A stretch of DNA of 36,679 nucleotides. Source: Desulfobacteraceae bacterium. Lineage in GTDB: Bacteria; Desulfobacterota; Desulfobacteria; Desulfobacterales; Desulfosalsimonadaceae. Below the pieces are notes generated by a model. It was given only the letters and a program-made list of their open reading frames with translations, did not search any database and had not been told where the DNA came from. This document shows, in pieces, positions 12,287-34,058 of this stretch (the stretch's first letter is position 1; each line of letters opens with the position of its first letter). The position numbers were made by a program, and so were the translations under genes. The stretch is taken from contig JAABSL010000346.1 in the NCBI GenBank assembly GCA_011390415.1, positions 1 through 36,679 on the forward strand, read 5' to 3'.

Positions 12287-13349
12287 TGGCGATATCTTCT
12301 TTTATGTATTTAAATACCTGAATCCGCTGATTGCTTGAATCAGACACAAAAATCCGGTCCTCTTTATCAATATGGATTCCATTGGGAAGCCAGAACTCGC
12401 CGTATCCGCCGCCATGATCACCGAATGCCATCAAAAGACGGCCCGACGCGTCAAACATCTGGACATTGTCAAACAGGGCATCCACCACATAGATGTTGTC
12501 CGCGCTGTCGCATGCCACGCCCTTGGGTCTTGAAAATGTGCCCGGGCCATGCCCCATCTGGCCGAACGCGTTCAAAAACCGGCCGTCCGGAGAAAACACC
12601 TGCACCCGGAAATTTAATGAATCGGATACAATGATGTTTCCAGCCGACGTCACGCATATCTGGGTGGGATAATGAAACCGGCCGGCTGCCCTGCCTTTGC
12701 CGCCAAAAGCCCCTTTTGGCCAATGATCGGCCAGATCATACCTGAAAACCTTCGACTGCAGGGTATCCACCACAAGCAGTTCCGATGTCGTCGCATTGAC
12801 GGCAATACCGGTGGGCCGCTGAAGATCGTCCCGGCCCAGTTCGGATACAAACTGCCGGCCGCGGTCCTTAAAGATTTTAACGACCCCGTCTTTTGCATCC
12901 GTGACATAGATCACTCCATTTGAATCAACGTCAATGCCCACAGGAGCGGAAAGCCCTTCCCTGTCCGCAGGAAAGGCAAAATAATTGTTTCCGTCCGCGT
13001 CAAAAACATGCACCTGTTTTTGGAACGTATCCACCACATAGAGCCGGCCCTGATCATCGGACGACACACCATAGGAAGAGACAATGCGCGGGACCGGACT
13101 GCCGATGATATAGTTGACCACCTGTTGAATCATCCCGGCCCTGATATTTAAATCCGCCGGCGTTGAAACCGCGTTTAAAAATTGTATCCGCTTTACTTCC
13201 GGCGGGTTCGGCCAGAAAATATCCGAATCCGGCCGCATGGGTTCCGGCGACTTATGGCATCCGGCCATCCCCAGGCAAAGGACTGCAATCACTATAATGA
13301 TAAGGGGATGTTGATGAATCACAGAAATTTTTAGTCTTACAGAATTCAT
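12273..13349 (-). CDS. NHL-repeat (6-bladed beta-propeller) lipoprotein
   Basis: Lipobox LGMAGC; repeated YVVDTFQKQVHVFDADGN, IYVTDAKDGVVKIFKDRG, IIVSDSLNFRVQVFSPDGRFLNAFG, IYVVDALFDNVQMFDASG, IFVSDSSNQRIQVFKY; overlaps the 3' dodecaheme gene by 14 bp. Start moved to internal ATG. Confidence 0.9.
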   Translation of the reverse strand: MNSVRLKISVIHQHPLIIIVIAVLCLGMAGCHKSPEPMRPDSDIFWPNPPEVKRIQFLNAVSTPADLNIRAGMIQQVVNYIIGSPVPRIVSSYGVSSDDQGRLYVVDTFQKQVHVFDADGNNYFAFPADREGLSAPVGIDVDSNGVIYVTDAKDGVVKIFKDRGRQFVSELGRDDLQRPTGIAVNATTSELLVVDTLQSKVFRYDLADHWPKGAFGGKGRAAGRFHYPTQICVTSAGNIIVSDSLNFRVQVFSPDGRFLNAFGQMGHGPGTFSRPKGVACDSADNIYVVDALFDNVQMFDASGRLLMAFGDHGGGYGEFWLPNGIHIDKEDRIFVSDSSNQRIQVFKYIKEDIANEDK

Positions 13350-13405
13350 TGTTATTCCAAGGCGGTCGCAACTGCTTTGATAATACGCCGGTTCATGGCT
13401 TAAGC

Positions 13406-15394
13406 TTACCAGAGGCTTCTGTTGACGACAAAATAGAACCGCTGGCGCCACAGGCTGTCATCATTTTCCTCATCTTCCTGATCCGTCAGCCGGTAAGAGA
13501 TGGTCCCGGTCCAGACGCCATATGCCAGGCGGAGGGTCGGGCCGATTTCCGAATACAGCATATCCTGCCGGTCTCCGGAAATACTGTTTCGCAGCCAGAT
13601 CAGACTGAGACTGCACCACCATTCCGGGGTCCAGCTGATATCGGTGCCGAGGGTATAGAATGTTTCATCTTCATGGGTGTCTGTATATTCTCTTTCTCCG
13701 TAGTCTCCGGAGAAGTTGAAATAAAAACTCCGCCACGGTCTGAGATTAATGAGCTGGCGCACACTTCTGGTAACGCTGGAATTTCCGTTCCGGCGGTCCT
13801 GGTCTTCATATAAAAACTGCGTCTCGGACCAGTCTGTTTCCAGCCTGATCCGCACCCTGTCGTAGGTATCATCAATGGGACCGGTGCGGGATTCGCCGGA
13901 AGTGATATTCTGATCCAGCCGGCCGTGGGTATACATAAAATATAAAAAAGACCACAGGTCCAGGCCGACGCGATAATTTTGTCCGAACCGGGAATCGTCA
14001 AACCCCGTATCTATCCGATAACTGTAACGCACACTCACCAACTGGCCGTCTGCGATGTCGCCAAGCAGGGTGCGGCTGATTCTTACATCCGGACCAATCA
14101 TCTCGATCCGGTAATCCACGTCCCGGAGAAAAACCCGGCTTCCCGGTACATCGGTAACCACAATGGTATCGAGTTCAACATTTTCTTTGTCCAGATAGGT
14201 TTCCGCAGATGATGACAAAACATGGCGCTCTTCGGTGGGTATGGTTGTATCCGTGCCGCTTCGTTCGGTCATTCCGTAATCGTACACAGCACCCAGTTCG
14301 AGATTGCCCCAGGGAATGGGCCGCCGATAATTAAATCCGAGGTTTGCCTGATACGTGTCTTCGCTGCCGCCGACAAAATCGTTTACCCCGGCGCCGGCGC
14401 CAAGATCGGTTGTGAGACGGTTGAACAGCCGATGGGTTAAACCGGCTTTGACCGCTCTTTCCTCGGTGACCGTGTCGTCGACATCCCGGCGGTTATAATT
14501 AAATGTATACCGGGTCAGCAGATTCGGGTTGTGGGTCCAGAAAAGATTTTCAGCCATTACCCAGGTATCATAATCAGAATCATCATATTCGCTCCGGGTA
14601 TTATAAAGCAGGGAATCCAGCCGTACCCGGTTGTCCCGGGTAAAGAACCAGGTGTTTGTCAGCTCCGAATTGGTCATCGTTGATTCGGTATCCCTGGTTT
14701 CCGATACCGTCCGGGTGGTTCGGTCCGATTCATCATAGAGTATATTCAGTTCCGTAATGCTGTTGTTGGCATTATGCCGGATTTTTGCCTGCAGTTCATT
14801 ATTGTCTTCTTCCGACTGGTAAAATCCGGTCTGGTCAACTTTCCGGTTGGTGAATCCAAAAGAAGCCGGCAGTGTCGGGTTGGTAAAATTTAACCGGGTG
14901 CCCCAGGTTTCACTTTCAATATCAGAATCCCGGACAGATGTCAGATCAAGCCGACGGTTGTTCCGGCTGCCGAAGATATCCAGGGAACAGGGCTTATGCT
15001 TAAGCAGTGTTGTCCTTGCATCATAGGCCATCACCGATGTGCCCCTCCGGGTTGTGTGCGTTGAATCGGTGGCCGAGCGCCAGTGATCGAATTTTTCCTG
15101 GCGCCATTCGGGCTCCAGAAACAGCCGGTATTCCATCAGGTTGGGATGATACACCCATCCGTTCGTCCCGAGACCGATGCGCTCCTGCAGGTCACGGGTG
15201 GTGGTTTCTTCCTTCATTTCAGGGGTTTCTCTTTTTTCTTCCTCCAATTCATAGGATGCGCCCATGGACAGTTTGGGCCGTTCAATAAAAAAAAAGTCCC
15301 CTTCCCGGGCATACAGCGTCGAAACCGCTGTCAAAACAACAACACACGATTGCATAAAAACGATTAAAATTGTCAGCATCTTTCGATGAATCAT
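13406..15394 (-). CDS. Outer-membrane beta-barrel protein, candidate porin of a cytochrome conduit (OetB/MtrB-like by context)
   Basis: 662 aa, signal peptide, many alternating amphipathic strands (e.g. LGAGAGVNDFVGGSEDTYQANLGFNYRRPIPWGNLELGAVYDYGM), C-terminal aromatic ...RQRFYFVVNRSLW; embedded among multiheme cytochromes. Confidence 0.75.
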   Translation of the reverse strand: MIHRKMLTILIVFMQSCVVVLTAVSTLYAREGDFFFIERPKLSMGASYELEEEKRETPEMKEETTTRDLQERIGLGTNGWVYHPNLMEYRLFLEPEWRQEKFDHWRSATDSTHTTRRGTSVMAYDARTTLLKHKPCSLDIFGSRNNRRLDLTSVRDSDIESETWGTRLNFTNPTLPASFGFTNRKVDQTGFYQSEEDNNELQAKIRHNANNSITELNILYDESDRTTRTVSETRDTESTMTNSELTNTWFFTRDNRVRLDSLLYNTRSEYDDSDYDTWVMAENLFWTHNPNLLTRYTFNYNRRDVDDTVTEERAVKAGLTHRLFNRLTTDLGAGAGVNDFVGGSEDTYQANLGFNYRRPIPWGNLELGAVYDYGMTERSGTDTTIPTEERHVLSSSAETYLDKENVELDTIVVTDVPGSRVFLRDVDYRIEMIGPDVRISRTLLGDIADGQLVSVRYSYRIDTGFDDSRFGQNYRVGLDLWSFLYFMYTHGRLDQNITSGESRTGPIDDTYDRVRIRLETDWSETQFLYEDQDRRNGNSSVTRSVRQLINLRPWRSFYFNFSGDYGEREYTDTHEDETFYTLGTDISWTPEWWCSLSLIWLRNSISGDRQDMLYSEIGPTLRLAYGVWTGTISYRLTDQEDEENDDSLWRQRFYFVVNRSLW

Positions 15395-18401: not shown

Positions 18402-19409
18402 CTACATCTGATGACACTCCTTGCACAAATTTTCCGGGATGCGATGCCTGTACTTACTGCCCGCCCCTTTGGAGCCGGGACGATCAGCCGGAATCACCCC
18501 GCGCGCATGCGGGTTATGGCAGGTAATGCATGTCATTTTTCCGTTTTCATCCAGAGGCAGCCGGATGTTGTATTTTTCTTCCATGACCTCGATCCGCTGC
18601 AACCCGTCCGGCGACGGCTCAATCCCCATATGATCGGCATTTCCCGAATGATTTCCCGCAATATGATGGCACCGGCGGCACATCATCTCTATATCTCCCA
18701 AAAACTTCACATCCTTAAACGTGGCATGTTTTTCATCCGGTTTTTCAGTATGGCACATCAGGCACGTCTCTATGATGATCTCACCCTCGTCGTTTAACTG
18801 CTGGTGAGGATCGAGCTTTTGGTAATTTTCCCGGGCATGACATTTATAGCAAAATTCCGTCCGGTTCGGATAAGGGGCCCCGCGCAAAGAATTCCTGTTA
18901 AACAGCCGCTTCTGGCATTGCCAATAAATATTATGGCATGTCAGGCAGGTAACCTGCCCGTTTTCCAAAGGGAAATCAGCCGGCATCCGTTCCTTTTTTT
19001 CCGGTGCGGGCGTTACGTCAACCGGATGGATATAGACCCCCGGCGAAAGATCATGACAGCGGCATAACCGATTATAGTCACCACCGAACATCAGATACGG
19101 ATCTTCGCCCTCCACCGGGGTTGTTTCATGGCACTCGTTACAATATTTACCGGTATAATGAATATTGGTGGATGCGGTGACATCCGGATTTTCAAAACTG
19201 AATTCCGGTGCCGGGGGCGTTGCCATATCATCAGCCGCACCGTCGGCCGCACCAGTTGTTGAACCGGACTCCGAATACTCACCATCGCCGTCCGGTTCAA
19301 CGATCTGACATGCAACCAGCACCAGACAGAACACGGCCATGAGGGCTACTGCCAGTTTTACCTTTAATAGCATCTGCCGGGACATCGGATAATGGTTACG
19401 GAATAACAA
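18402..19409 (-). CDS. Multiheme cytochrome c lipoprotein, 7 CXXCH + conserved CRCH
   Basis: Lipobox VLVAC; CNECH, (LCRCH), CLTCH, CYKCH, CLMCH, CRRCH, CITCH, CKECH. Start uncertain (TTG at 19409 or ATG at 19385). Paralog of 33165..34058. Confidence 0.9.
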   Translation of the reverse strand: MLFRNHYPMSRQMLLKVKLAVALMAVFCLVLVACQIVEPDGDGEYSESGSTTGAADGAADDMATPPAPEFSFENPDVTASTNIHYTGKYCNECHETTPVEGEDPYLMFGGDYNRLCRCHDLSPGVYIHPVDVTPAPEKKERMPADFPLENGQVTCLTCHNIYWQCQKRLFNRNSLRGAPYPNRTEFCYKCHARENYQKLDPHQQLNDEGEIIIETCLMCHTEKPDEKHATFKDVKFLGDIEMMCRRCHHIAGNHSGNADHMGIEPSPDGLQRIEVMEEKYNIRLPLDENGKMTCITCHNPHARGVIPADRPGSKGAGSKYRHRIPENLCKECHQM

Positions 19410-21921
19410 ATCGGTTTCTCCCTATCCCCTGTTTCGGTTCTTTTCGTTTATCAGCCTTGTGAAAATATTTGAACATAAACAGTCCTTCCGGTCCATGGCA
19501 CCGGCTGCACACCCGTTCAGGCAGGTGGGGTCTTAAAAAACTGGAGGCAACATTACCTTCACGATTGGCTTCATCGCCTTGTCTTACGTCGTCGCTGCGC
19601 CATTGATGGGCATTGTGGCATGACGGGCATGAGATCCTGCCGGCCATGACCAGGCGCGCATTTTCCGGATCAAAAATCGGAAATACCGGTTCCGCCATGG
19701 AACCCTTTTGAAAATTGGCCACAAACAAAGTTTCCGGATGCGATGAAATCTCCGGCACTTTGGCGGCGGCGGCCCCTTTTTCAGAATGGCAGGTATTGCA
19801 CATCCGGTCCATTACATGATCGCCATTGCCCAGTTGCCGGGCCCACAGCCGAATCCCCTCGGCGTTATGATGGACCAGGTGACAGGAGCCGCATACACCG
19901 GATTCAAACGGTGTCCGGCCGGCGATATTTCTTGCGCCCGGAGCGGTCCGGAGCAGGTTGTGGTCCGACTGCCGGACATCGGTTTTATCGGGATGGCAGC
20001 GGAGGCAGATATCCGATTCCGGGGCCGTGTCGAGGCGCAGAAACCGTTCCAACGGACGGCCTTCAACTGCCACCGGTTCACCGTTTTTCGATAGAACGAG
20101 GGTCCGGCGATGGGGATCATGGCAGGTATAGCAGGTCATGACGCCGCTGTCTGCCACCTCCCCGGCCGCATTGAAAAGGGGCAGTCCTTTCAAACGGGTC
20201 CGCATCCCTTCGGATAAGGAAACATTGACCGGATGAGAATTTTCCGGAATAATTTTGTGGGCCGCCAGTCCGCCCTCTTGATGACATGCGGCACACATAT
20301 CGTAAATTTTCGTGCCGGTTTCCGTTGTTATATTGCGGCCCCAGATAAATCCTTCCGGTTCACTGTTATGGAGGAAGTGACAATTCCGGCACAAGCCCGG
20401 TTCGGCAATCTTTTGTGTCATGATTTCGTGGCCGTCGGGGAATTCGCTTTCAAGGTCATGGCCGGAACCCCGGATGCCAAATTTGTCATCATGGCAGGCG
20501 CGGCAGAGTCCGGGGGACGGCTTTCTTAATAATGTATTTTTGGGGGCTGCCGTGCCGGTTTCAGCAAGGGGCGTTTCTTGGATCGCCGGGCCGCCGTGGG
20601 TATCATGACAGGTAGCACAGGTCATTTCGCCGTATTTATCCGCCACCCCGAATTTATTGAACAGCGGCAGATCCAGCCGCCCGTTTTCCAGGACAATGGT
20701 CCGGTAAGGATCGGCATCTGCGTCACCGATCATTTCAGCCAGCGTCATTCCCACCGGATGGCTGTAGCCGGCCAGTTTTTCGTTTTCAGCCACCGTTCCC
20801 CGGGCATGACAACTCATGCAAAGGGCCGTGGTCCGGTCCGCCTCTTCATACTTTTCCGGCAGACGGCGGGCCGGATTGTGAGGCAAATGGCAGGCCGAAC
20901 AGACGCCGGATTCGGACACGGTTTTTCCTTGCAGGTTCTTTTCGTCTTTGGCTGAAATGCCGAGATTGTGCCGGGTTTTTTCCAGCCGCTGTTTGTCCGT
21001 GTGGCAGGTCATACAAAACTTCGATTTTTCATTTTTCTCGACCAGCAGCGCCGGTTGATTGATCTTGTTATTATGGACCTTGTGGCAAGTCTGACAGGTG
21101 ATCACGTCATCATAGCCCAGTTTGGCGCCTTTTTCCTGCAGCGTCTCCGGCACCACGGCTTTCTGAGGGCGCACATTGATCACATGATTGGCGTTTCGCA
21201 TACCGGACGGATCAAAAATATTCTTATCCCGGTGACACGTTATGCAGAGTCCGCTGTCACCGGCGCCCATGACCAGATACCCTTCCCGGGGGGCGCCATG
21301 GGCCGTATGGCAGGTTTCGCATATCATCTGATTTTTTTTGCTTCCTTCATGGGCGCCGCGCATCTTCAGCGTCTTTGGAATGATTTGTTTGCTTTCACCC
21401 AAGCTATGATTGCCCGCATCCGGGCCGCCGGATTTGTCCGGATGGCACATGCGGCACATGGCCGAATCCCGGTTGGACACCCGCATAAAAATGGTTTCAT
21501 CGATGCCGGGCCCGCTCGGCACACCGTGGGCCGTGTGACAGGTGGCGCACTGTACCCTGCCGTTTTCATCAAGGGGGAAGGCTGCCGGGATTTTCATATC
21601 GGCCGGCGGCTTCACATTGGTTTGATGCTCATTGCCGTGGCGCGTCCGTTTTCGGGAATCCATGACACTGCCGTCGTGACAGGAAAAGCACATTTCCGCA
21701 TCAGCCGCCACTTTCTCGGATTGATAGGGAACCAGGTCCGTTCCCCTGCCGTCAACAAAAAAAGTGTCAATCCAGCGATAATGACATATGGCGCATGCCT
21801 TGGCCGAATTCGGATTTTTGGGAACATCTGCGGGGGCGGCCGCAAACCCGGCTGCGGGCATCTGGAAAACAATCATCAAACAAATGGTGATGATGCTGCG
21901 GCAAATTCTTTTCTGCATCAT
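19396..21921 (-). CDS. Large multiheme cytochrome c, 20 CXXCH, paired-CXXCH repeats
   Basis: Signal peptide; 20 CXXCH counted by hand from CAICH to CSRCH; repeated tetraheme units; 4-bp overlap with upstream NHL gene. Confidence 0.93.
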   Translation of the reverse strand: MMQKRICRSIITICLMIVFQMPAAGFAAAPADVPKNPNSAKACAICHYRWIDTFFVDGRGTDLVPYQSEKVAADAEMCFSCHDGSVMDSRKRTRHGNEHQTNVKPPADMKIPAAFPLDENGRVQCATCHTAHGVPSGPGIDETIFMRVSNRDSAMCRMCHPDKSGGPDAGNHSLGESKQIIPKTLKMRGAHEGSKKNQMICETCHTAHGAPREGYLVMGAGDSGLCITCHRDKNIFDPSGMRNANHVINVRPQKAVVPETLQEKGAKLGYDDVITCQTCHKVHNNKINQPALLVEKNEKSKFCMTCHTDKQRLEKTRHNLGISAKDEKNLQGKTVSESGVCSACHLPHNPARRLPEKYEEADRTTALCMSCHARGTVAENEKLAGYSHPVGMTLAEMIGDADADPYRTIVLENGRLDLPLFNKFGVADKYGEMTCATCHDTHGGPAIQETPLAETGTAAPKNTLLRKPSPGLCRACHDDKFGIRGSGHDLESEFPDGHEIMTQKIAEPGLCRNCHFLHNSEPEGFIWGRNITTETGTKIYDMCAACHQEGGLAAHKIIPENSHPVNVSLSEGMRTRLKGLPLFNAAGEVADSGVMTCYTCHDPHRRTLVLSKNGEPVAVEGRPLERFLRLDTAPESDICLRCHPDKTDVRQSDHNLLRTAPGARNIAGRTPFESGVCGSCHLVHHNAEGIRLWARQLGNGDHVMDRMCNTCHSEKGAAAAKVPEISSHPETLFVANFQKGSMAEPVFPIFDPENARLVMAGRISCPSCHNAHQWRSDDVRQGDEANREGNVASSFLRPHLPERVCSRCHGPEGLFMFKYFHKADKRKEPKQGIGRNRFVIP

Positions 21922-22859
21922 GGGCCCTCTGGTGTAATGCGGTAGACACTGACCTTCTGGTCCAGCATTTCAACCACGTACAGGCGGTTGTCCCGGTCAA
22001 TATAAAGGCCGACGGGTGTCTTAAATTTTTGAACTGTTTTCTGCCGGCCATCTCCCAGCACCCCGTAAAATCCCCCCCAGGTGCCGAATACCTGGATCAC
22101 GCCCATGTAACTGTCGCTCACATAAATTCGGTTGTTCGCATCTACGGCAACCCCTTTGGGCCGGAAAAACTGTCCTTTTTCCACACCCCAGCCGCCGACA
22201 TAGGTGACGAACAAGCCTTCGGGACTGATGACCTGGACCCGGGTATTGATGACATCGACAACATAGAGATAATTCTCCTTGTTCAGTGCGGCTAAAAACG
22301 GATACCGGAACTTCAGCTCCTGGTCTCCCGCCCCCCCGATGGTATTAATCAACTGCCGGGTTGACAGATCATAAACAAGAAGCCGATGGTTGTCGTTATC
22401 CACCGCATACAGACGGTTGCGCGACTCATCCACCGCCACATCCGTGGGATCCGCGGGTTTATCGCCTTTGGCCGGCAGGTCAATGGATGCGGTAAAATTT
22501 GTATCCCGGTCAAATATCTGAACCCGGCTGTTGCCGGCATCGGCTATGTAAATATTGCCCGCATTGTCCACATCAATGCCGAGGGGAAACTGAAACCGGC
22601 CATTGCCGCTGCCTTCTTTTCCAAAGGCCGAAAGTGCTTTGCCATCTTTGTCAAACACTTTTATCCGGTTGTTCACACCGTCGACCACATAAATTTTGCC
22701 GTCTTTTGAAACCGCCACATCACTGGGCTCGCTGAAGTCTGCTGAAATTTCAAATAAAAGATCGATATTCACAATATTGACGCCCAAAGCAGGACCTGCC
22801 GACAGAACCGCAAAAGCCACAATCATATGGAAAAGAATAATCCGGCGGATGTGCATCAA
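21918..22859 (-). CDS. NHL-repeat beta-propeller protein, secreted
   Basis: Signal peptide; IYVVDGVNNRIKVFDKDGKALSAFGKEGSGNGRFQFPLGIDVDNAGNIYIADAGNSRVQIFDRD...; paralog of 29241..30185. Confidence 0.92.
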   Translation of the reverse strand: MMHIRRIILFHMIVAFAVLSAGPALGVNIVNIDLLFEISADFSEPSDVAVSKDGKIYVVDGVNNRIKVFDKDGKALSAFGKEGSGNGRFQFPLGIDVDNAGNIYIADAGNSRVQIFDRDTNFTASIDLPAKGDKPADPTDVAVDESRNRLYAVDNDNHRLLVYDLSTRQLINTIGGAGDQELKFRYPFLAALNKENYLYVVDVINTRVQVISPEGLFVTYVGGWGVEKGQFFRPKGVAVDANNRIYVSDSYMGVIQVFGTWGGFYGVLGDGRQKTVQKFKTPVGLYIDRDNRLYVVEMLDQKVSVYRITPEGP

Positions 22860-22938: not shown

Positions 22939-23886
22939 TTACCGGAACATGTCCGGGAAGTAAAAGATCTTGTATTTGGTCACCAGCCCCTTGATATTGA
23001 TATTGATCAGGTCATGTGCTTTTCTGGACGAAAAACCGAGATCTTCGAAATCAAGGATAGTGTCCGTTGAATGGCATTCATGGCAGGTCACACTGACGGC
23101 ATTTTTATGGATGTCTTTGTGAAAATACGCCAGCCGTTCTTTTTTCTCGGCAGATGTCCACTGGTCTGCTTTTGCAAGGTATGCTTCTGCTTTTTCCGTA
23201 TCCCAGGTATTGTGCAATGATTTTTTTTCACCGTTTTCTTCGGAAAAAACCGAAATTCTCGATATAAAATGACCGGTTTCCGATTCACCGCCGAGCTTGG
23301 GGTTAAACCGGGCACCAAACGGTTTGCCCGCAAAATCGGCGGTTTCCGAACCCGTCCATTCATAGTCGATATTTGTATATTCCTCCCGGTTGATATGGCA
23401 TGTCTCGCAGGTCATAAAACCGACATGCATGTTAATGAACGCTCTTGCCAGTTCATTGCTTTTGTGCGGATACAGCCGATGACATACCCGGCAGGCAGAC
23501 CCGTCCGCCAGACGGGTAATATAAAACTGCTCATTGTCATGCATTGTCTTTAAATTAAAGTCTGCGATCAGCTTTTTGTCTTTTTCGGCCAGATGGCATC
23601 CGTTCGTGCAATTAACGGCTGTTTCGCCCACATGCGGCACCTTGTTAACCGTGGTATGACATTTCCGGCAATCGGTTTTACCGTGGGGAGATTGCAGGTA
23701 ACGCTCCTCATCAATATGAAACACCCGGAACCCTTCCGGCGTTTCCGGCCGGGTCAGTCCCGGATACTGATGGCAGGTAAAACAGCCGCTCTCGTCCATG
23801 GCAAACCCGTTGTCCCGGGCAGATGCCAGTATCAGCACCAGCATCGATACACAAACCACTAATCGGCAGGGAATTTTTGGTATCAT
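22939..23886 (-). CDS. Hexaheme cytochrome c (chimeric architecture)
   Basis: CFTCH, CRKCH, CTNGCH (CX3CH), CRVCH, CETCH, CHECH; N-half resembles 25576.. and 32005.., C-half resembles 23939.. and 30189... Start at internal ATG 23886. Confidence 0.9.
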   Translation of the reverse strand: MIPKIPCRLVVCVSMLVLILASARDNGFAMDESGCFTCHQYPGLTRPETPEGFRVFHIDEERYLQSPHGKTDCRKCHTTVNKVPHVGETAVNCTNGCHLAEKDKKLIADFNLKTMHDNEQFYITRLADGSACRVCHRLYPHKSNELARAFINMHVGFMTCETCHINREEYTNIDYEWTGSETADFAGKPFGARFNPKLGGESETGHFISRISVFSEENGEKKSLHNTWDTEKAEAYLAKADQWTSAEKKERLAYFHKDIHKNAVSVTCHECHSTDTILDFEDLGFSSRKAHDLININIKGLVTKYKIFYFPDMFR

Positions 23887-23938: not shown

Positions 23939-24802
23939 TTATTCTGTCTGCGGCGCTTCCCGAAAATCAATCACGGACGGCAGATGAATTGTCTTGTCCT
24001 TGTTGATCATGCCCACAAATTCATTGGAGATCAGGTGATCGACCCGCTGCCTGGAAAATCCGAGCTGTATGAAATCAAGATACCCGTCCTTTTTATGGCA
24101 GTCATTGCAGGATACGGGCTCTTTTGAAATCCCTTCGTGAAGCTTGGCTCTGGCTGCGTCGAATTGTTCTGTATTCAGTTCGGGGCTGATTTCCAGAAAA
24201 CGCCGGGCAGCGGATTCTGAAATCGGTGTCAGAATTTGCCGGATTCCCTGTTCGTTGACTTTTACGGGAAATATGGTTGCCGGATACTTGCCGTATTCTC
24301 CCTCAACGGCTTTTTTAAATTCCCCGGTCGCCCAAACCCGCCATAAAAATGCCGATATCTCATTTCCAAGGCGGGGTCCGTCGGGGATGTTTTCACCCCC
24401 CTTGCGCACATGGCATACGGAACAGGATATAAAGCCTTCATGCATGTTTAATAAGGCGCGTACCTTCTTTTCCTTGTCATGAGCATACCTCCCGTGACAC
24501 ATCACGCAGATCGGCGGCGGTTTTGCCGATTTTTCAACATAGGCGTCAATCATATGAAAATGGTCCCGGGGCACGGCTTCTTTTTTCGGAATAACCACCG
24601 GCAATACTTGCGGCTCCGGGCGGTATCGTAAAAGTGAAATCGACGCATTTAAATCAAATCCCGGGAAATAGACAAGACCCAGCAGCCACAGGCCAAATAC
24701 AAAAAAGGGTAAAAGATAGATCACTTTTATCAAAAACAGGCCGCTTTTTTTGATCATGCGAAAGGCCCGGGTAAAAATCGAAGCCTTCTTTTCTTTATTC
24801 AT
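23939..24802 (-). CDS. Membrane-anchored triheme cytochrome c
   Basis: N-terminal TM SGLFLIKVIYLLPFFVFGLWLLGLVYF; CVMCH, CSVCH, CNDCH. Confidence 0.9.
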   Translation of the reverse strand: MNKEKKASIFTRAFRMIKKSGLFLIKVIYLLPFFVFGLWLLGLVYFPGFDLNASISLLRYRPEPQVLPVVIPKKEAVPRDHFHMIDAYVEKSAKPPPICVMCHGRYAHDKEKKVRALLNMHEGFISCSVCHVRKGGENIPDGPRLGNEISAFLWRVWATGEFKKAVEGEYGKYPATIFPVKVNEQGIRQILTPISESAARRFLEISPELNTEQFDAARAKLHEGISKEPVSCNDCHKKDGYLDFIQLGFSRQRVDHLISNEFVGMINKDKTIHLPSVIDFREAPQTE

Positions 24803-25568
24803 CCTGTTTCGGTCCCTTCGTCAGGTAGATTTTCCGGAGTTTCGGATCACTCATGATCCTTTTGTAATGCAGGGGATACTCTTCCTTCATTTCGGCTTCA
24901 TCTATGATGCCGGTGAGCCACATGTTATCCCCGGGAAACTTGTGCGGCCGCAGGTGAACTTCATACATATGCCAGACCATCACCGCCAGGCAGGCCAGAA
25001 CCGCTTCCATCCCGTGAATCAGTGCGGCAATATCAATGATGAATTTATCCCAGAAAGACTCGGCCCACAAAATCAGACCCGAAGCCGACATCAGCCCGGT
25101 ACCGACAATCAGGGCCAGATACTCCATTTTGTGTTTATAGGAGAACCGGTCAAACTCCGGCGGGTGTTCTTTCACCTCGATATAATAGAGCATATTATGA
25201 ATAAATTCTTTGATATCTTTCGGCCGCGGCATCATGTCAAAAAGCCAGCGCCGGCCGGCCCGTTTAAAAATCAGATAATAGAAATGGTAGGCACTCACTA
25301 TAATCATAGCGGTCCCGGCCATACGATGCAGCACGCCGCGCACGGTAAACACGGTTTCTTTCGCCCCGCCGAGAAAATCAAGGGTTGTTTCGGGAATCCA
25401 GACCATAAAGCCCGTGGCGGCCAGAACAATAAAGCTGACGACAAAGATCATATGCTGGACTCTTTCATTAAAATTGAGCCGGACAAAATACAGGGGGGTA
25501 TCGCCCTGCTCTTTCTCCTTGCTCATTTTCCCTTGTTCCATGGTTATTTCATTGTGTGACATATGCAA
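24795..25568 (-). CDS. Cytochrome b, FdnI/Cbc-like membrane subunit
   Basis: VQHMIFVVSFIVLAATGFMVWIPE, VLHRMAGTAMIIVSAYHFYYLIFK, MEYLALIVGTGLMSASGLILW, ALIHGMEAVLACLAVMVWHMYEVHLRPHKFPGD; His residues placed in TM helices. Confidence 0.9.
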   Translation of the reverse strand: MHMSHNEITMEQGKMSKEKEQGDTPLYFVRLNFNERVQHMIFVVSFIVLAATGFMVWIPETTLDFLGGAKETVFTVRGVLHRMAGTAMIIVSAYHFYYLIFKRAGRRWLFDMMPRPKDIKEFIHNMLYYIEVKEHPPEFDRFSYKHKMEYLALIVGTGLMSASGLILWAESFWDKFIIDIAALIHGMEAVLACLAVMVWHMYEVHLRPHKFPGDNMWLTGIIDEAEMKEEYPLHYKRIMSDPKLRKIYLTKGPKQDE

Positions 25569-25575
25569 CCTCTTG

Positions 25576-26736
25576 TTAATGATGGGTCCCTTCGGTTTTC
25601 ATTTTCTTTCGGATCCGCCGGAAATCCAGCAACTGGTGCAAAACCATAAATCCGATCACGGAGCCGATAAGGACCTGATACACCAGCCGGATCAGGGAGA
25701 GGATTTTGTAATGGAATATCTCTTCATCCGAAACTTCTTCGCGGGCCCGGATCAGCATGACGGAATCTTCGGCTTCGGCTTCAGCGATGACGGCTTCCCG
25801 GGCCGTCAAAAGCTGCACTTTTGATCCATAGGCATGCACCCGCCCTTCGGCAAAATCGGCGGTGGCCCCGGGATGACATTCCTGAACCCCGCCCTGGTTG
25901 CTGCATGTTTTCACCCGGTTGCGTTTATTGGTCGGTGACACGGGATCGGTTCTGGGCTGGATTTCATGGGTGGTATATCCCACGGGCACATGACAGGAGA
26001 TACAGTCGGGGGCATTTTCCACGCCGTATTTGACCATTGTCCAGTGAAATGTGTCCTTAAAGGTCGATACCGCTTCAAGGCCGTGGCGCGTCATTTTTTC
26101 TTCATTTTCATGACAGCTCGTACACAGCCGGATAATTTCATCCTGTTCCCGTTGCCGCCGCATGCGATGGGTGAAATGGGCATATATCTCTTCGGTCCAG
26201 GCCTTCTCCGTATGACACGCCTGGCACCGGGCCAGGGTTTCAAGGGCCAGGGCCGCACTTTTGCCCCAAGCCCCCTCATAGGGATTGTAGGACCGATTCT
26301 CATGACAGTAAGTGCAGGTGGGCAGGTCTTCGGGAAATTTTTTCTTTTCATCTGCGGCTTGTCCGTGCACGCTGTTGTCATACTTTTTTACCATGTTTTT
26401 ATGCGAAAAATCCAGATTGGAAGAGGGTTCTTTTATGTGGCACTGTGTGGCGCAATCCACTTTTTTCACTTCATCATGGGGTATCTTGTCCAGATCCGTA
26501 TGACAGCCTTTGCACCGGGCTTCCCCGTGAACGGAATTTCCGAATAAAACGTCATTAATGTAATAGATCCGTCTGGTTCCGTCTTCATCATATCGTCCCA
26601 GGTTGGGATATCGATGACAAATCAGGCAATTTTCTTCATCCGGCGCTGCTTCTGACTGGGCAAAACCGGCCCCGGCCCCTGAACAGACCGCAATAAACGC
26701 AACAACAGCCAATTTAAAATAAAGGGATAATTTCAT
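25576..26736 (-). CDS. Octaheme-type cytochrome c with C-terminal TM (7 canonical/CX3CH + CX8CH)
   Basis: CLICH, CKGCH, CATQCH, CTYCH, CQACH, CTSCH, CISCH, then CSNQGGVQECH; C-terminal TM YKILSLIRLVYQVLIGSVIGFMVLHQLL. Start at internal ATG. Confidence 0.9.
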   Translation of the reverse strand: MKLSLYFKLAVVAFIAVCSGAGAGFAQSEAAPDEENCLICHRYPNLGRYDEDGTRRIYYINDVLFGNSVHGEARCKGCHTDLDKIPHDEVKKVDCATQCHIKEPSSNLDFSHKNMVKKYDNSVHGQAADEKKKFPEDLPTCTYCHENRSYNPYEGAWGKSAALALETLARCQACHTEKAWTEEIYAHFTHRMRRQREQDEIIRLCTSCHENEEKMTRHGLEAVSTFKDTFHWTMVKYGVENAPDCISCHVPVGYTTHEIQPRTDPVSPTNKRNRVKTCSNQGGVQECHPGATADFAEGRVHAYGSKVQLLTAREAVIAEAEAEDSVMLIRAREEVSDEEIFHYKILSLIRLVYQVLIGSVIGFMVLHQLLDFRRIRKKMKTEGTHH

Positions 26737-26835
26737 TTTTATCGATTTTGTCCTGGTTCGTTGTATTATATCCACTGAACTACCTTATGCCGAATGCCGG
26801 TTACGCTTTCCGGACAATGTTGCATGACCGTCTCA

Positions 26836-29244
26836 TTAGCGAGGCCTGAGCCCTTTGAGCATCTCTCGTTTTTCAAGTGAATGATAGTAAGTATATCGCC
26901 AGATCGCCCTTTGACCATGACAGTCAATACACACTGCCTGGTCGCTCGATGTCCGCAGAAAACTCGTGTCGGCATTGCCCTCTATATTTTCACCCGGTCC
27001 CTGTTCCGCCAGGCGATGATTCCACTGGTTGAAGGAATGACAGGATGAGCACGACAGGTCACCGGAATTGACCTCCTGCCAGTCCGCGTCAAACAGCTTG
27101 ATGTAGCCGAAGAACGGGGTGTCCGCCCACATGATATTACTGATCAGCTGACCCGGCGGATGCATAGCTACCGGCGGTATTTTATCGCCGGCAATCCCCT
27201 CTTTGGAATGACACCCGGTGCACAGGCCGTTCATCGAATGCTGGTCTTCGGCCACCGGTCCATAGGGCCCGACCCAGAGCAGCCGTTTTTCCGGACTGTT
27301 GTGAACCGCATGGCAGACCCCGCATTGGCCGGATTCCGTAACATTCCGGTTCTGCTGATTTTTAGCAGACGGTGCGGTAACAAAAAGATCGTGATCCGTC
27401 CCTGTGAGCAAGGCCGTGTCTTCGTGACAGACCACGCATAGGTCCGGAGCAGGAGAAGCTACTTTTCTTAAAAAACTGTTTCGCGCGTCCCCTTCGATGT
27501 TTTTGCGTTCTCCCGAGGCGCTGATCACCTCATCACCGACCGTCCAGATATGGGGATTATGGCAGGTCCGGCACAGAATCCGGTCGCCATTTTCAGTACT
27601 GCCTTTTTCATTGTACAGCGGCAGCATCGAAGCCACCCGATCGGCGGGCGGGATCTGCGGGCCCCGGGAAACCACATTGACCGGATGATCATTTTCGCCG
27701 ACCGGTTTTTCTTTTGCCATCTTGTTTTCCCCATGGCATCCAATGCAGTATTGCAGGGCCGAAACATCAGCCGGATCATTACTGTCCGGTGCCGGATCTC
27801 GTGCCCACAGCTTTTTGTCTGCTGCATTATGCGCAATGTGGCAGGCCCCGCAGGGTCCTGAAACCGCGGCAGTCCGTCCCTGGATGTTTTCAGCTTCCGG
27901 CGCGGTGACGGCCAGATTATGATCATAGGATAACAGCTGGCGTTTGTCCCGGTGACATTCCAGGCAAAGCATGGATGCCAGGCCGGCGGATATTCTCAAA
28001 AAACTGGTGGACGCGTCGCCGATTGCGTCCTTCCCGCCCTTATTTTCAGGGGAAACCGGATCCCATTGATGCATGTTATGGCAGGTAAAACATTGAACCG
28101 TTTTCGCGGTACCTTCAGTCTGCCGCGCTCCGTTTTTGGCGTACAGCGGCAGTTTATCCGTAATTGCCGTTGGCGCAAGTTCCAATACCGACTTTGACAC
28201 AATGTCCACATCATTGGGATGAGAATATTGACCAATACCTTTTATCTCAGCCTTATTCTCCTTGCCGGGGTCCGCTGCCGTATTCTCTTTGTGGCAGGAA
28301 AGGCAGATTCCGGAAGCCGGGTTGCCCGGGGGCATTTTCCGCGCCCACAGCTTATAGCCGGCGGCATTGTGGGGGACATGGCAGGCCCCGCAGGGACCGG
28401 ATTCCGACATGCGCTCTCCCTTTATATTGATTTCTTCGGGCATTGTCAGCCGCAGATCATGCAGGGTCCCGGTAACGGACCGCTGCTCATGGCAGACCAT
28501 GCAAAGCGCTGACCCGCGGTTATCCATTACCGTTAAATTGCGTCCTTTCGCCCCATGAACCGCATGACAGGTCTGGCATATGACCGAATCCTTTTTTTCA
28601 GCCGGTATGCTGCCGGTTTCAAACAGGGTGTCCGGTATCCTGAGTTTGTCCGTGTGCACCGGATGGCCGTTGGTTCGCTTGTAGTCAGCGGCGTTCACAT
28701 GGCATGCTTCACACATGGCGGAGTCCGTGTTCGACACACGGAGAAAGGAATTCGGACCGGCAACGGATGCGTCAGGATCACCTTCAGGTGCGGCAGCCTC
28801 TTCACTATGGGGGGTATGACACGTCCCGCAGTAAATTTCGTCTGTATTGCTTAATGTAAAGGGTTCGGGGATTTTTGCATTCTCCGGCAGCTTTTTAAAC
28901 GTGGTGTGATTGTTGCCCTTCCATGCAATGTGGCGCGAATCCAGGACATATCCGTCATGGCAGCTGTAGCAGATCTCTTCGGCACTGACGATTCCCTGGG
29001 TATCTTTCATCAAAACATTTCCCGGTTCCCAATCAATCAGGGTTTCCTGCTCTGTTCTGAATACGTTCAGCCACATGACATGACACATGGCGCACTCTTT
29101 TTTGGATGATTTTTCAAGGGCCGCCCATGCGGCCGGGCATTCCAACAATACCACCCAAAAGAGTACAATGACCATATAAAATGTCAGGTTGATGGTGAAT
29201 ATCCGGTAGAGAGATATTCGGCGGCGGTAAGCAAAAAATTTCAT
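26836..29244 (-). CDS. Large multiheme cytochrome c, 18 CXXCH, paired-CXXCH repeats
   Basis: 18 CXXCH counted from CAMCH to CIDCH; three ~4-heme internal repeats; 4-bp overlap with upstream NHL gene; paralog of 19396..21921. Confidence 0.93.
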   Translation of the reverse strand: MKFFAYRRRISLYRIFTINLTFYMVIVLFWVVLLECPAAWAALEKSSKKECAMCHVMWLNVFRTEQETLIDWEPGNVLMKDTQGIVSAEEICYSCHDGYVLDSRHIAWKGNNHTTFKKLPENAKIPEPFTLSNTDEIYCGTCHTPHSEEAAAPEGDPDASVAGPNSFLRVSNTDSAMCEACHVNAADYKRTNGHPVHTDKLRIPDTLFETGSIPAEKKDSVICQTCHAVHGAKGRNLTVMDNRGSALCMVCHEQRSVTGTLHDLRLTMPEEINIKGERMSESGPCGACHVPHNAAGYKLWARKMPPGNPASGICLSCHKENTAADPGKENKAEIKGIGQYSHPNDVDIVSKSVLELAPTAITDKLPLYAKNGARQTEGTAKTVQCFTCHNMHQWDPVSPENKGGKDAIGDASTSFLRISAGLASMLCLECHRDKRQLLSYDHNLAVTAPEAENIQGRTAAVSGPCGACHIAHNAADKKLWARDPAPDSNDPADVSALQYCIGCHGENKMAKEKPVGENDHPVNVVSRGPQIPPADRVASMLPLYNEKGSTENGDRILCRTCHNPHIWTVGDEVISASGERKNIEGDARNSFLRKVASPAPDLCVVCHEDTALLTGTDHDLFVTAPSAKNQQNRNVTESGQCGVCHAVHNSPEKRLLWVGPYGPVAEDQHSMNGLCTGCHSKEGIAGDKIPPVAMHPPGQLISNIMWADTPFFGYIKLFDADWQEVNSGDLSCSSCHSFNQWNHRLAEQGPGENIEGNADTSFLRTSSDQAVCIDCHGQRAIWRYTYYHSLEKREMLKGLRPR

Positions 29245-30185
29245 TCCGATACTTCCACTATCCGTATCCGGTTGGCGCGCATTTCCACGACATGCATCCG
29301 GTTTTGGGCATCAAAAACCATCCCCACGGGCGTATCAAACTCCCGTTTTGCTCCGTTTTCGCAGACCACTCCGATAAAACCGCCCAGATTCGTAAATGCC
29401 TGAACGCATCCCATGAAACTGTCTGATATAAATACCCGTCCGGTGTTGTCCACGGCAACCCCCTTGGGCTTGAACAGGCCCCCCGGTGTCACCCCCCAGG
29501 TGCCGATTTCAGCGATAAAATTGCCGAACGGATCAAACTTCTGAATCCGTGTATTTAATACGTCCACTACAAAAATCTGATTGAATTCATTGACCGCCAG
29601 AATGCCGGGGTAACGGAACCGGCCCCGCACTTCACCAAAGCCGCCGAATTCAAATTCAAAGGTGCCGTCCTGCTGGTGGACTTTTATTTTATGATTGTCA
29701 TTGTCCGCCACATACAGATAATTTTTCAGCTCAATTGCCAGTACGTCCACCGGATCAGCCGGTTTTTCGCCGTCAGACGTCTTCACCGGAAACAGGTACT
29801 GGAATGTGCCGCCGGCATCAAAAACCTGTATCCGGTGATTGCCGGTATCTGCGATAAAAACCCGCCCGTCCTTTGCAATGTCGATGCCCAGCGGATATTG
29901 AAACTCGCCCGGACCGCTTCCGCCTTTGCCGAACGAAAATTGAAGCGCACCCTCGCCGCTGGTCACCACCACCCGGTTATTTACGCCATCCACCAGATAA
30001 ATATTGCCTTTTGCGCCGATGGCCAGATCGCTTGGCTGGTCGACACCCGGCGGGGTGATTGACCGCACCACATCACTGCTCACACATTCCATTGAAAACA
30101 CATTTTTTGCCGGCAGGAACAGGAACAAAAAGCCAGCGATCCATGCAAAAATAATTTTTTTCCGGGTACGTCCCATGTCTGCCAT
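29241..30185 (-). CDS. NHL-repeat beta-propeller protein, secreted
   Basis: Signal peptide; IYLVDGVNNRVVVTSGEGALQFSFGKGGSGPGEFQYPLGIDIAKDGRVFIADTGNHRIQVFDAGG...; paralog of 21918..22859. Confidence 0.92.
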   Translation of the reverse strand: MADMGRTRKKIIFAWIAGFLFLFLPAKNVFSMECVSSDVVRSITPPGVDQPSDLAIGAKGNIYLVDGVNNRVVVTSGEGALQFSFGKGGSGPGEFQYPLGIDIAKDGRVFIADTGNHRIQVFDAGGTFQYLFPVKTSDGEKPADPVDVLAIELKNYLYVADNDNHKIKVHQQDGTFEFEFGGFGEVRGRFRYPGILAVNEFNQIFVVDVLNTRIQKFDPFGNFIAEIGTWGVTPGGLFKPKGVAVDNTGRVFISDSFMGCVQAFTNLGGFIGVVCENGAKREFDTPVGMVFDAQNRMHVVEMRANRIRIVEVSE

Positions 30186-30188
30186 TAT

Positions 30189-31076
30189 CTACTGCTCCTG
30201 TCCGTCGGGTTCAGGTGGTGGCATTGCTTCGGGCAATTGGCTCCCGTCTGAGGATTTGAATAAATCCGGAAGATAAAACTCATCGTATTTGGTGATCATT
30301 CCCTTGATGCTTAAATTCTGAAGATCCACAATTCTTTTTTCGGAAAATCCCAGCTTCTTAAAATCAAGAATGCCGTCTGTGGCATGACAGGTATGGCATT
30401 CCGGACCCTTGGGAAGAATATCTTCGTGAAATTTTTTGACCATTCCTTCCCGCTGCTCGGGGGTGAGCTGATCCCGGACCCGCATATAATCCTTTGCCAT
30501 GTCCGTCTTCTCCATGTGCAGGGTGGGCACCAGTTTTCCGTCTTTTTTATAAAAAGGGACAATTTGAGATAAATGATCATCCGTGCGTTTGAGTTCCCCG
30601 GATTCGGGATCATAGGACGTGCCGAAAAAGGGACCTTGCGGATTCTCCTCCACCGGAGAATACCACTGATACACCACCACCTCTTCTTCTTTTATTTCCA
30701 GGTGGCATGTTTCACAGGCAAAAAAATTCGTGTGCATGTTCAGCATGGCCCGGATCTTCTTTTCTTTACCATGGGGCAGGGTTGAATGACAGATAAAGCA
30801 GGTCGGCCGGAGGGCTTCCGGGGCCTGGGGATAATCGACTATACGGTGAAAATGGCGGTGCTCCTCGGCGAGTCGGTGCTGCTCGAATTCCTGCAAAATA
30901 TCCGACTCTTTTTCCTGAAATTTTTCAACCAGCGGCAGCAAAAGCCCGGGACCGTGGTGGGAAAAGGCCAGATGGTTGACCACCCCGGCCAGCACAAAGA
31001 GTGTCATGAGCAGCACAAAAAGCCCAATCAAATAGATCACCCACGGATGATTCAGTCTTTTCGGGTCTCTTCTCAT
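30189..31076 (-). CDS. Membrane-anchored triheme cytochrome c
   Basis: TM HPWVIYLIGLFVLLMTLFVLAGVV; CFICH, CETCH, CHTCH. Start moved to MRRDPKRL (31076), giving a 4-bp overlap with the cyt b stop. Confidence 0.9.
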   Translation of the reverse strand: MRRDPKRLNHPWVIYLIGLFVLLMTLFVLAGVVNHLAFSHHGPGLLLPLVEKFQEKESDILQEFEQHRLAEEHRHFHRIVDYPQAPEALRPTCFICHSTLPHGKEKKIRAMLNMHTNFFACETCHLEIKEEEVVVYQWYSPVEENPQGPFFGTSYDPESGELKRTDDHLSQIVPFYKKDGKLVPTLHMEKTDMAKDYMRVRDQLTPEQREGMVKKFHEDILPKGPECHTCHATDGILDFKKLGFSEKRIVDLQNLSIKGMITKYDEFYLPDLFKSSDGSQLPEAMPPPEPDGQEQ

Positions 31077-31972
31077 CCGGATTCCCCTTCTTTTTCCGCA
31101 TACCCCATTTCCGCCAGCACAGAGCGCATATATTCCCGCTCTTCCGGAATTTCCGCCAGGTTGCGCACATATTCCAGAAAATGTTCTTCCAGCTGATGTT
31201 CCCGGGTAATTTTTCCCGTAAAAACTGTCCATTGGGCGGGAAACCGGCCCGGTACCAGGTGCACATTGGACAGATGCCAGAGGGCAACAACAATCAGGGC
31301 CATAATGGCTTCATCCGCATGCATGATCCTGGCCAGGTCCTGGACAAATGACGGGTTAAACGGCCACAGCAATGCGACATACTCCGGATAGAGCAGCGCC
31401 AGGCCGGCAAATATCAGAACAAAGGAACCCCACAAAATGGCAAGGTAGTGAAGCTTCTGCTTGTACATGAATTTTTCCATTTTCGGGCGAAAAGGCGCAC
31501 GACCCAGAAAATATTTAATATCATGGATTAAATCAAAAAGATCCTTGGGCAGCGGCACCTGGGTTCTCCGGATATCAAATTCTTTTTTTACGATCTTTTT
31601 TATGGTGCCGCCGGCAATGGTTAAAATGTGATATACGGAGGCGCCGATCATGATATAAGCGGCAATCCGGTGGATCACCTGGGCCATATCAATGCCCCCG
31701 AAAATCCAGATCACATGGGGCGCCCAGAACGCGTCATTGTAGTGCAGGGGAATGCCGGTGGCAGAAAGCGCAATAAACGTCGTAAAAATCAGAATGTGCT
31801 GAAAAACGATATGCGCCGAGTATCGGGGCAGATCCCCGAGCGGGTTGGATTTGACGTACTTGTATATGTCCCGGGGAATGGAGCCCACCCCTGCCACATG
31901 GGTAAAATAGTCGTCCGGCATTGGCTTAACGGATTGCCCGGACCCGGCGATCTTTTCAATGGCGGCCGTCAT
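31073..31972 (-). CDS. Cytochrome b, FdnI/Cbc-like membrane subunit
   Basis: IVFQHILIFTTFIALSATGIPLHYNDAFW, VIHRIAAYIMIGASVYHILTIAGG, LHYLAILWGSFVLIFAGLALLY, IMHADEAIMALIVVALWHLSNVHLVPGRFP; paralog of 24795..25568. Confidence 0.9.
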   Translation of the reverse strand: MTAAIEKIAGSGQSVKPMPDDYFTHVAGVGSIPRDIYKYVKSNPLGDLPRYSAHIVFQHILIFTTFIALSATGIPLHYNDAFWAPHVIWIFGGIDMAQVIHRIAAYIMIGASVYHILTIAGGTIKKIVKKEFDIRRTQVPLPKDLFDLIHDIKYFLGRAPFRPKMEKFMYKQKLHYLAILWGSFVLIFAGLALLYPEYVALLWPFNPSFVQDLARIMHADEAIMALIVVALWHLSNVHLVPGRFPAQWTVFTGKITREHQLEEHFLEYVRNLAEIPEEREYMRSVLAEMGYAEKEGESG

Positions 31973-32004: not shown

Positions 32005-33078
32005 TTATTTTCCCTTGTCCTGAATCCGCCAGCTGCTCCCCGCCTTTAATGTCATGTGAATGCCGTCTTTTTTTCTGCGGTAGGTTTCCAGAAACAAAAG
32101 CCCCATAAGACCGAATACGGTGCCGTAGAGGATGGCTTTGAGCACCAGATTGCTCATGACAAAAAGGACCGGATGATGCGGCACTTTAATGCGGGGATGA
32201 ACCGCGATTTTAACAAAATGCTGGTTGATCTTTGCGTGGCAGTTTTTGCAGATGGCCTGCAGATTATCTTCGTGAATTGAAGATTTCGGATTGTCTTTTT
32301 CATAAATATCATGAATCAGGCTCGAGGCATGACAACTGATGCAGTCCGCGGCTTTCTCCGACCCGAGGGCGGTCATCTTGCCGTGGATCGATTCTTTATA
32401 GGTCGCAACCACTTCCAGATCCCGGCCGGTAGCACCCAGTTTTTCCATGAGCGGGACATTCCCGTGACAATTTCTGGCGCACAGCGACACAATTTCCTGT
32501 GAAGATCGCGATGTCTTGTGGCGCAGCCGATGGGTCATGTGCAGATAGGCCTCTGTCACGCCTTTTTTCTTATGGCAGTTCAGACAACGGTCCAGTGTTT
32601 TTTCATAATCAATATTTTTTTCATCCGCTATTTTGTACAGGGGGTTCAGATGGCAATACTTGCAGTCGGGTTTGGATTCTTTCATTAACGGCGAGTCATC
32701 CGCCTTTACTGCATGATCGCTGGAATTAAAGACTTCGATGATTTTCCGGTGGGAAAAATTCTTTTCCGCAAACGGCGGCTTGATGTGACACTCATTGGCG
32801 CAATTGACGGTTTCCGTTACCGGCTCATGGGGGAACTTCTTGATATAGGTATGACATCCCCGGCATTCAACATCTCCGTGCAGGCTGTTTAAAAAGAGGT
32901 GTTCATCAACATGATAGTTTCGTCTCAGGCCGTCTTCAGCGATTCTGCCCATAAACGGATATTTATGACACATGAGGCAGTTCTCCGGGTCCGCAGCCTG
33001 TGCCTTTGAAAAACCGGACAGCCACAATGACGGTATCAAAAGCACTATCACTGCGATCAGAAGATATTTTCGTTTCAC
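32005..33078 (-). CDS. Octaheme cytochrome c with C-terminal TM
   Basis: CLMCH, CRGCH, CANECH, CKYCH, CLNCH, CARNCH, CISCH, CKNCH; signal peptide VKRKYLLIAVIVLLIPSLWLSGFSKAQA after a GTG start with AGAGGAG RBS; C-terminal TM LVLKAILYGTVFGLMGLLFLE. Confidence 0.88.
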   Translation of the reverse strand: MKRKYLLIAVIVLLIPSLWLSGFSKAQAADPENCLMCHKYPFMGRIAEDGLRRNYHVDEHLFLNSLHGDVECRGCHTYIKKFPHEPVTETVNCANECHIKPPFAEKNFSHRKIIEVFNSSDHAVKADDSPLMKESKPDCKYCHLNPLYKIADEKNIDYEKTLDRCLNCHKKKGVTEAYLHMTHRLRHKTSRSSQEIVSLCARNCHGNVPLMEKLGATGRDLEVVATYKESIHGKMTALGSEKAADCISCHASSLIHDIYEKDNPKSSIHEDNLQAICKNCHAKINQHFVKIAVHPRIKVPHHPVLFVMSNLVLKAILYGTVFGLMGLLFLETYRRKKDGIHMTLKAGSSWRIQDKGK

Positions 33079-33164
33079 CGTATCGGCTCCTCTGTTTTTT
33101 GAGCACATACCTCTAACCATTTCACAAAAATAACCCGAAAATAAATTGATGGCTAAGAACGCCA

Positions 33165-34058
33165 TCACATCTGATGGCATTCCTTGCACATCTTCTCCGG
33201 CAGCCGGTGCCGGTTTTTGCTGTCCGCCCCTTTTGCCGACGGTTTATCCGCCGGAATCACCCCTTTTTCATGGGGATTATGGCAGGTGATGCAGGTCATT
33301 TTGCCGTCTTCCGTCAGCGGAAGGATGATATTGAATTTTTCTTTCATCCGTTCCATTCGCATCAGCCCCTCATCTGTCGGTTTTTCCGCCATATGGTCGT
33401 AATCGCCCGCGTGATTGCCCGCAATCTGGTGACATCTCCGGCACAGGGCCTTTATATCTCCTATAAAGGTGACTTCTTCATAGGTGGCGGTCTTTTCATC
33501 CGGTTTTTGTTCATGGCAATAAAGGCACATTTTTATGCTCAGCGTTCCATCCGGCTGCGTCTGATGATGGGCATTCAATTTTTTATATTTTTCTGCGTCA
33601 TGGCATCTGTAGCAAAAATCGGATTTAAGGGGGTACGGCGCACCCCGCAATGACTGTTTGTCAAACAACCGCTTCTGGCACTGCTTATAAACATCGTGGC
33701 AGGTATTGCAGGTAAATTTTCCGTCTTCTATGGGAAAATCCGAAGGCGTATCGGCTTTACGGTCGCCTCCGGTGGTTATCTCCAGAAGGTGACAGTAACC
33801 GGGCGACATGCCGTGATGGCACCGGCACAAGCGGTTATAATCGCCGTTGAATTTCAAGTAAGGATCACCGCCTTCTGTCGGTCTTTGTTCATGACATTCC
33901 CCGCAAAACCGGCCGGTATAGTGTATATTGGTGTTTTCATCGATAATGACGGGCCAGGAGGCCGGCGTTTTTTCTGTTGGTTCTTTCTGATCCGGCGCCA
34001 GACGGCAGCCTGAAAAAAACACAAAAAAGATGAGAACCATTATCGATATATTTTTCAT
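33165..34058 (-). CDS. Multiheme cytochrome c lipoprotein, 7 CXXCH + conserved CRCH
   Basis: Lipobox FSGC; CGECH, (LCRCH), CNTCH, CYRCH, CLYCH, CRRCH, CITCH, CKECH; paralog of 18402..19409. Confidence 0.92.
   Translation of the reverse strand: MKNISIMVLIFFVFFSGCRLAPDQKEPTEKTPASWPVIIDENTNIHYTGRFCGECHEQRPTEGGDPYLKFNGDYNRLCRCHHGMSPGYCHLLEITTGGDRKADTPSDFPIEDGKFTCNTCHDVYKQCQKRLFDKQSLRGAPYPLKSDFCYRCHDAEKYKKLNAHHQTQPDGTLSIKMCLYCHEQKPDEKTATYEEVTFIGDIKALCRRCHQIAGNHAGDYDHMAEKPTDEGLMRMERMKEKFNIILPLTEDGKMTCITCHNPHEKGVIPADKPSAKGADSKNRHRLPEKMCKECHQM

Follow-up and report, generated by a model that had tools for sequence, protein, structure and literature searches.

HEX, a hexaheme cytochrome c encoded in the window (the whole stretch of DNA analysed here, 36,679 bases), is a composite protein, whose N-terminal half is homologous to the N-terminus of 8-heme cytochromes (OCT) and whose C-terminal half is homologous to the periplasmic head of 3-heme cytochromes (TRI). 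This composite nature is well supported, and HEX represents a real, conserved cytochrome family that is undescribed as far as the open-access literature shows. OCT and TRI are encoded together with a membrane cytochrome b (CYB) in OCT/CYB/TRI operons, denoted as triads in the following. On balance, HEX is considered to be a soluble periplasmic electron carrier that would have arisen from a single fusion of OCT and TRI by loss of the membrane part of an A/D-type triad, a reading that appears to us probable. The window comprises one whole contig (C346) of a 3.4-Mb draft genome; as this genome harbors dsrA, its host probably reduces sulfate.

The HEX gene starts with an ATG at 23886 and ends with a stop codon at 22939-22941 (window coordinates). 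The preliminary description had predicted a hexaheme protein from this reading frame, and 315 residues with six heme motifs were indeed found. The gene and its parts are as follows:

22939..23886, minus strand: HEX, composite periplasmic hexaheme cytochrome c, 315 aa (from the ORF list, a motif scan and homology)
Residues ~1-29 of HEX: signal peptide
23593..23799, minus strand: HEX N-half, residues ~30-98 with hemes 1-3; homolog of the OCT N-terminus, whose CX3CH form of the third motif it shares
22942..23541, minus strand: HEX C-half, residues ~116-315 with hemes 4-6; homolog of the TRI periplasmic head

Five of the motifs are CXXCH (at residues 35, 73, 132, 160, and 268) and one is CXXXCH (at residue 93). 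All members of the pooled HEX set, which consists of 49 distinct full-length sequences besides that of the window, show six motifs, apart from a single sequence that has eight. The latter is a second HEX copy in the bin Glo_13 (L099:8090-9256, plus strand), which carries two extra motifs and an inserted segment. The signal peptide is present across the 49 relatives, and mature HEX contains no membrane helix (highest 19-residue hydropathy 1.33, 49 relatives). OCT carries a C-terminal and TRI an N-terminal membrane helix, so that the earlier suggestion of a soluble form devoid of the parental anchors holds. Seven histidines outside the motifs are conserved in at least 94% of the 50 HEX sequences, enough to provide six distal ligands.

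Searching the own genome with HEX yielded only five matching places, namely HEX itself, two TRI, and the N-termini of two OCT. HEX residues 130-315 share 36% and 29% identity with the two TRI, and the identities to the two OCT N-termini amount to 40% and 32%. In profile-profile comparisons, HEX matched TRI with an E-value of 9.5e-47 (HEX 129-314) and OCT with 2.2e-29, the latter match running from the HEX N-terminus to about residue 168 and being strong only through heme 3. TRI and OCT compared in the same way gave no convincing match (best probability 37%), and as the two parents do not match each other, HEX is a true composite with halves homologous to different, mutually unrelated families. 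The heme spacing follows the same division: hemes 1-2 and 2-3 are separated by 38 and 20 residues in HEX and by 38 and 20-21 in OCT, hemes 4-5 and 5-6 by 28 and 108 residues in HEX and by 28 and 105-106 in TRI. The tail KGLVTKYKxFYFP, conserved at the C-terminus of TRI, is likewise present in HEX. The alignments proposed in the preliminary description, hemes 1-3 with the N-terminus of the 8-heme and hemes 4-6 with the 3-heme proteins, are borne out by these profile matches and spacings and, for the former, by the shared CX3CH motif. Its interpretation as a fusion of both families stands as far as the composite is concerned, but not as a local event, since the family is conserved in two phyla. 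With 49 independent full-length relatives, an artificial join of two genes through sequencing or assembly errors is ruled out. H116 lies 16 residues before heme 4, its TRI counterpart (HFH) lies 16 residues before the first TRI heme, and an OCT counterpart is found 17 residues before OCT heme 4; as this histidine has counterparts in both parents, the joint is placed within residues 99-131, and no more finely.

The structure of HEX was modeled from 18 orthologs alone (pLDDT 50, pTM 0.40) and from a 150-row alignment including the parent halves (pLDDT 87, pTM 0.83). In the latter model, the segment linking hemes 5 and 6 forms a beta hairpin and helices. A Foldseek search of the HEX model against the PDB returned nothing at E<=0.001, which is weak evidence either way, as the model contains no hemes.

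On its minus strand, the window harbors a cluster of multiheme cytochrome genes. It begins with OCT_A-CYB_A-TRI_A, an NHL-type protein and an 18-heme cytochrome, continues with OCT_B-CYB_B-TRI_B, HEX, a second NHL-type protein and a 20-heme cytochrome, and is followed by more cytochromes and NHL-type proteins:

32005..33189, minus strand: OCT_A, 8-heme cytochrome with C-terminal membrane helix, module A
31073..31972, minus strand: CYB_A, membrane cytochrome b, module A (PF01292 just below cut-off)
30189..31232 as listed, minus strand: TRI_A, triheme cytochrome with N-terminal membrane helix, module A; the listed frame overlaps CYB_A, so the true start is probably near 31073
29241-30185, minus strand: NHL-type protein after module A
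26836-29244, minus strand: 18-heme cytochrome after module A
25576..26775, minus strand: OCT_B, seven standard heme motifs plus a conserved CX8CH, C-terminal membrane helix, module B
24795..25568, minus strand: CYB_B, membrane cytochrome b, module B (PF01292 above cut-off)
23939..24802, minus strand: TRI_B, triheme cytochrome with N-terminal membrane helix, module B
21918..22859, minus strand: NHL-repeat-type protein after HEX, named by sequence appearance
19396..21921, minus strand: 20-heme cytochrome after the NHL-type gene, a conserved neighbor of HEX/module B in Desulfobacterales

The "8-heme" protein of module B is to be corrected to seven standard motifs, its eighth site being the CX8CH (CSNQGGVQECH, residues 291-301, window 25873-25905, minus strand). 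The eighth OCT site lies in the same place in types A, B, and C and is conserved within each of them, with the forms CX2CH (A), CX4CH (C), and CX8CH (B); no description of a CX8CH heme motif was found in the open-access literature. In both phyla, an NHL-type protein and a large cytochrome with 18-24 hemes regularly follow the triads (in the window at 26836-30185 and 19396-22859), an arrangement for which likewise no open-access description was found. Further along the cluster (window 10577-15394), a 662-aa protein of beta-barrel appearance without Pfam match is encoded next to the genes of an NHL-type protein and a 12-heme cytochrome and represents a candidate outer-membrane conduit.

HEX was split and trees were calculated for each half, as had been suggested. 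All HEX form one group in both trees (99-100% support), i.e. HEX has a single origin. In the C-half tree, HEX groups with lineage D (100/95) and, together with it, with lineage A (98/92), apart from B and C. Lineage D comprises triads with fused subunits from other families of the window's phylum. Grouping the HEX C-half with B is rejected (p-AU 0.0005), and a clade of A and D without HEX is not (p-AU 0.12). The initial impression that the C-half is closer to module A than to its neighbor B is correct with respect to B, but in the best tree D and not A is nearest. In the N-half tree (112 columns), HEX stays together on a long branch with unsettled placement: AU tests rejected none of five placements and significantly favored no parental lineage, the cheapest of the five being HEX with A and D (5.6 log units, p 0.18). 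Judged from these trees, the C side of HEX probably stems from the A/D lineage, an origin that is moderately supported; for the N side, which may share it, the same origin is weakly supported.

Full-length HEX is encoded in 20 of the 390 genomes of the window's class, including its own, the other copies being 44-72% identical. A scan of GTDB genomes revealed 50 loci, mostly with full-length HEX (39-73% identity), in Desulfobacterota and Nitrospirota, apart from single bins labelled otherwise; judging by their titles (Desulfococcus, Desulfobacterales, and similar), nearly all related loci come from metagenome bins. In the window's class, HEX and triads occur together in 20 genomes, triads alone in three, HEX alone in none, and neither in 367. 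The corresponding numbers for the Nitrospirota class are 22, 11, 1, and 166. Fisher tests of this co-occurrence gave p-values of 1e-30 and 4e-20, respectively, which are indicative only, since the genomes are related. Triads are more widespread than HEX, TRI being present in many families lacking it, and as triads are found without HEX, HEX is not essential to them. The Nitrospirota genome G441 has kept its triads and contains decayed HEX fragments (C32:60380-60589 and C56:1499-1789), one of them with several stop codons.

The genomic context of HEX differs between lineages. In Desulfobacterales, the gene resides inside the cytochrome cluster, usually next to OCT_B-CYB_B-TRI_B. Outside this setting (Nitrospirota, Desulfocapsaceae, and some further groups), HEX is a solitary gene with unrelated neighbors, and the triads are located at other sites of the genome. 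Solo HEX genes in Nitrospirota have no multiheme neighbor at the locus; their conserved neighbors, identified by eye from the sequences, are serine acetyltransferase/cysteinyl-tRNA synthetase, a YajQ-like protein, and a copper ATPase. As these resemble housekeeping or regulator genes, the neighborhood gives no clue to a partner or function in Nitrospirota.

The conserved distal histidines, the secretion signal, and the missing anchor point to periplasmic electron transfer by HEX rather than catalysis. HEX would exchange electrons with the membrane-bound triads, which are regarded as cytochrome-b type quinone-cytochrome oxidoreductase modules and may be quinone-linked, judging by their likeness to CbcBA and CbcL. 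Electrons would then pass along the six bis-histidine hemes of HEX to the 18-20-heme and outer-membrane cytochromes of the cluster. We infer this route, along which electrons may flow either way; in sulfate reducers paired with methanotrophs, such electron chains are thought to run inward (PMC10553843). Alternatively, HEX could be a fixed, non-diffusing extra subunit of OCT_B-CYB_B-TRI_B, as its position directly behind or beside these genes in most Desulfobacterales loci and the retained TRI tail would suggest. This is unlikely, given that the HEX gene stands alone in Nitrospirota, Desulfocapsaceae, and others, is often divergently oriented even close to module B, encodes no membrane anchor, and has a C-half that groups with A/D instead of B.

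A more specific version of the diffusing carrier, put forward tentatively and regarded as rather doubtful, is that HEX keeps the contact surface of the OCT and TRI heads, docks on the triads A, B, and C, and wires them together or to the outer membrane, so that a complex would have begotten its own carrier by internal deletion. If the general reading of HEX as a carrier of fused origin is right, it would clearly illustrate how subunits of a membrane respiratory complex can give rise to a soluble multiheme carrier, and it would point to the carrier of an electron-transfer system widespread in uncultured Desulfobacterota and Nitrospirota. Since both parents persist beside HEX, origin and interface are directly testable.

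With respect to its origin, the OCT N-terminal three-heme part of an A/D-type triad would have been joined to the three-heme head of TRI, and the membrane-bound stretch between them lost entirely. As the gene order is OCT-CYB-TRI, one internal deletion would be enough, whether it affected a second copy of a triad or a gene in which OCT, CYB, and TRI were already fused, and we infer such a deletion of the membrane-bound middle as the simplest course. D triads consist either of a fused OCT-CYB plus a separate TRI or of OCT-CYB-TRI as a single chain of 897-923 aa, and CYB-TRI fusions are found in further lineages. Triad genes fuse repeatedly, in operon order, as OCT-CYB-TRI in one chain, OCT-CYB, or CYB-TRI (fused genes at L214:2091-4781, L215:10180-12948, L221:254-3022, L049:15597-17168, and L207:8596-10203). 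One locus of a Nitrospirota genome (L105:3752-5575, minus strand) lacks CYB: OCT_A continues in frame directly into TRI_A, and the first heme motif is interrupted by a stop codon. This is probably a dead, natural deletion remnant, and it shows that a deletion of the kind proposed for HEX is possible.

The reverse direction, with HEX ancestral and OCT and TRI derived from its halves, had been named as the case that would speak against a fusion. The half-trees are unrooted, HEX forms the long branch of the N-half tree, and holding CYB of B and C together, as needed for a root at HEX, is not rejected (p-AU 0.14). Nevertheless, such a fission appears quite improbable: five hemes and two membrane helices would have to be gained and a CYB gene inserted, and HEX is nested beside A/D in the C-half tree. 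In the CYB tree, moreover, A is united with D in a single clade (100/100), and rooting with outside b-type cytochromes puts the root on the B side and A+D among the most derived (98/99), other roots not being rejected. Nesting, CYB rooting, and the wider spread of triads favor fusion as the probable direction; an ancestral HEX is disfavored by nesting, rooting, and parsimony, yet not rejected statistically.

That HEX is an enzyme, e.g. a periplasmic reductase resembling octaheme tetrathionate reductase, is highly improbable: the sole match to solved structures passing E 0.001 is a local one of residues 125-178 (hemes 4-5) to this reductase (1sp3, E 1e-6), which aligns just two hemes and is obtained with TRI as well, the TIGR04315 model scores HEX at 28.3 bits against a cut-off of 375, and HEX has six hemes instead of eight, all motifs ending in CH, with enough conserved histidines to saturate every heme and no sign of a catalytic one. 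HEX scores 24.6 bits with the cytochrome c3/c7 model PF02085 (cut-off 22.9) and 24.1 with PF14522 (cut-off 24.8), and 12 and 17 of 18 relatives, respectively, match at E<0.01; its six motifs are spread over 286 mature residues, about 100 of them between hemes 5 and 6, unlike the small 3-4-heme c3/c7 fold. Neither HEX nor TRI matched NapC/NirT (PF03264), and downstream of its signal peptide HEX is devoid of an anchor.

HEX resembles the carriers PpcA/cytochrome c7, TpIc3, and ExtA/ExtKL in being a soluble multiheme cytochrome of the periplasm, with an expected place between the two membranes; it differs from them in being built from the heads of two membrane-complex subunits and in matching c3/c7 only marginally. 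The papers on Cbc modules considered here (PMC11434368, PMC7894505, PMC10553843) mention no protein corresponding to HEX. The triads themselves, by description and gene make-up, resemble CbcBA/Cbc5 and CbcL of Geobacter in combining multiheme c with cytochrome b: CbcA is a 7-heme subunit in complex with the cytochrome b CbcB (PMC11434368, PMC7894505, PMC10553843), and CYB is a cytochrome b of the FdnI/HydC type paired with a 7-8-heme c subunit. In contrast to the Cbc modules, triads add a membrane-anchored triheme subunit, followed by the NHL-type protein and the 18-24-heme cytochrome. A 610-aa protein of L103 with nine hemes and a b part, CbcL-like by make-up, matches CYB_A at 32%.
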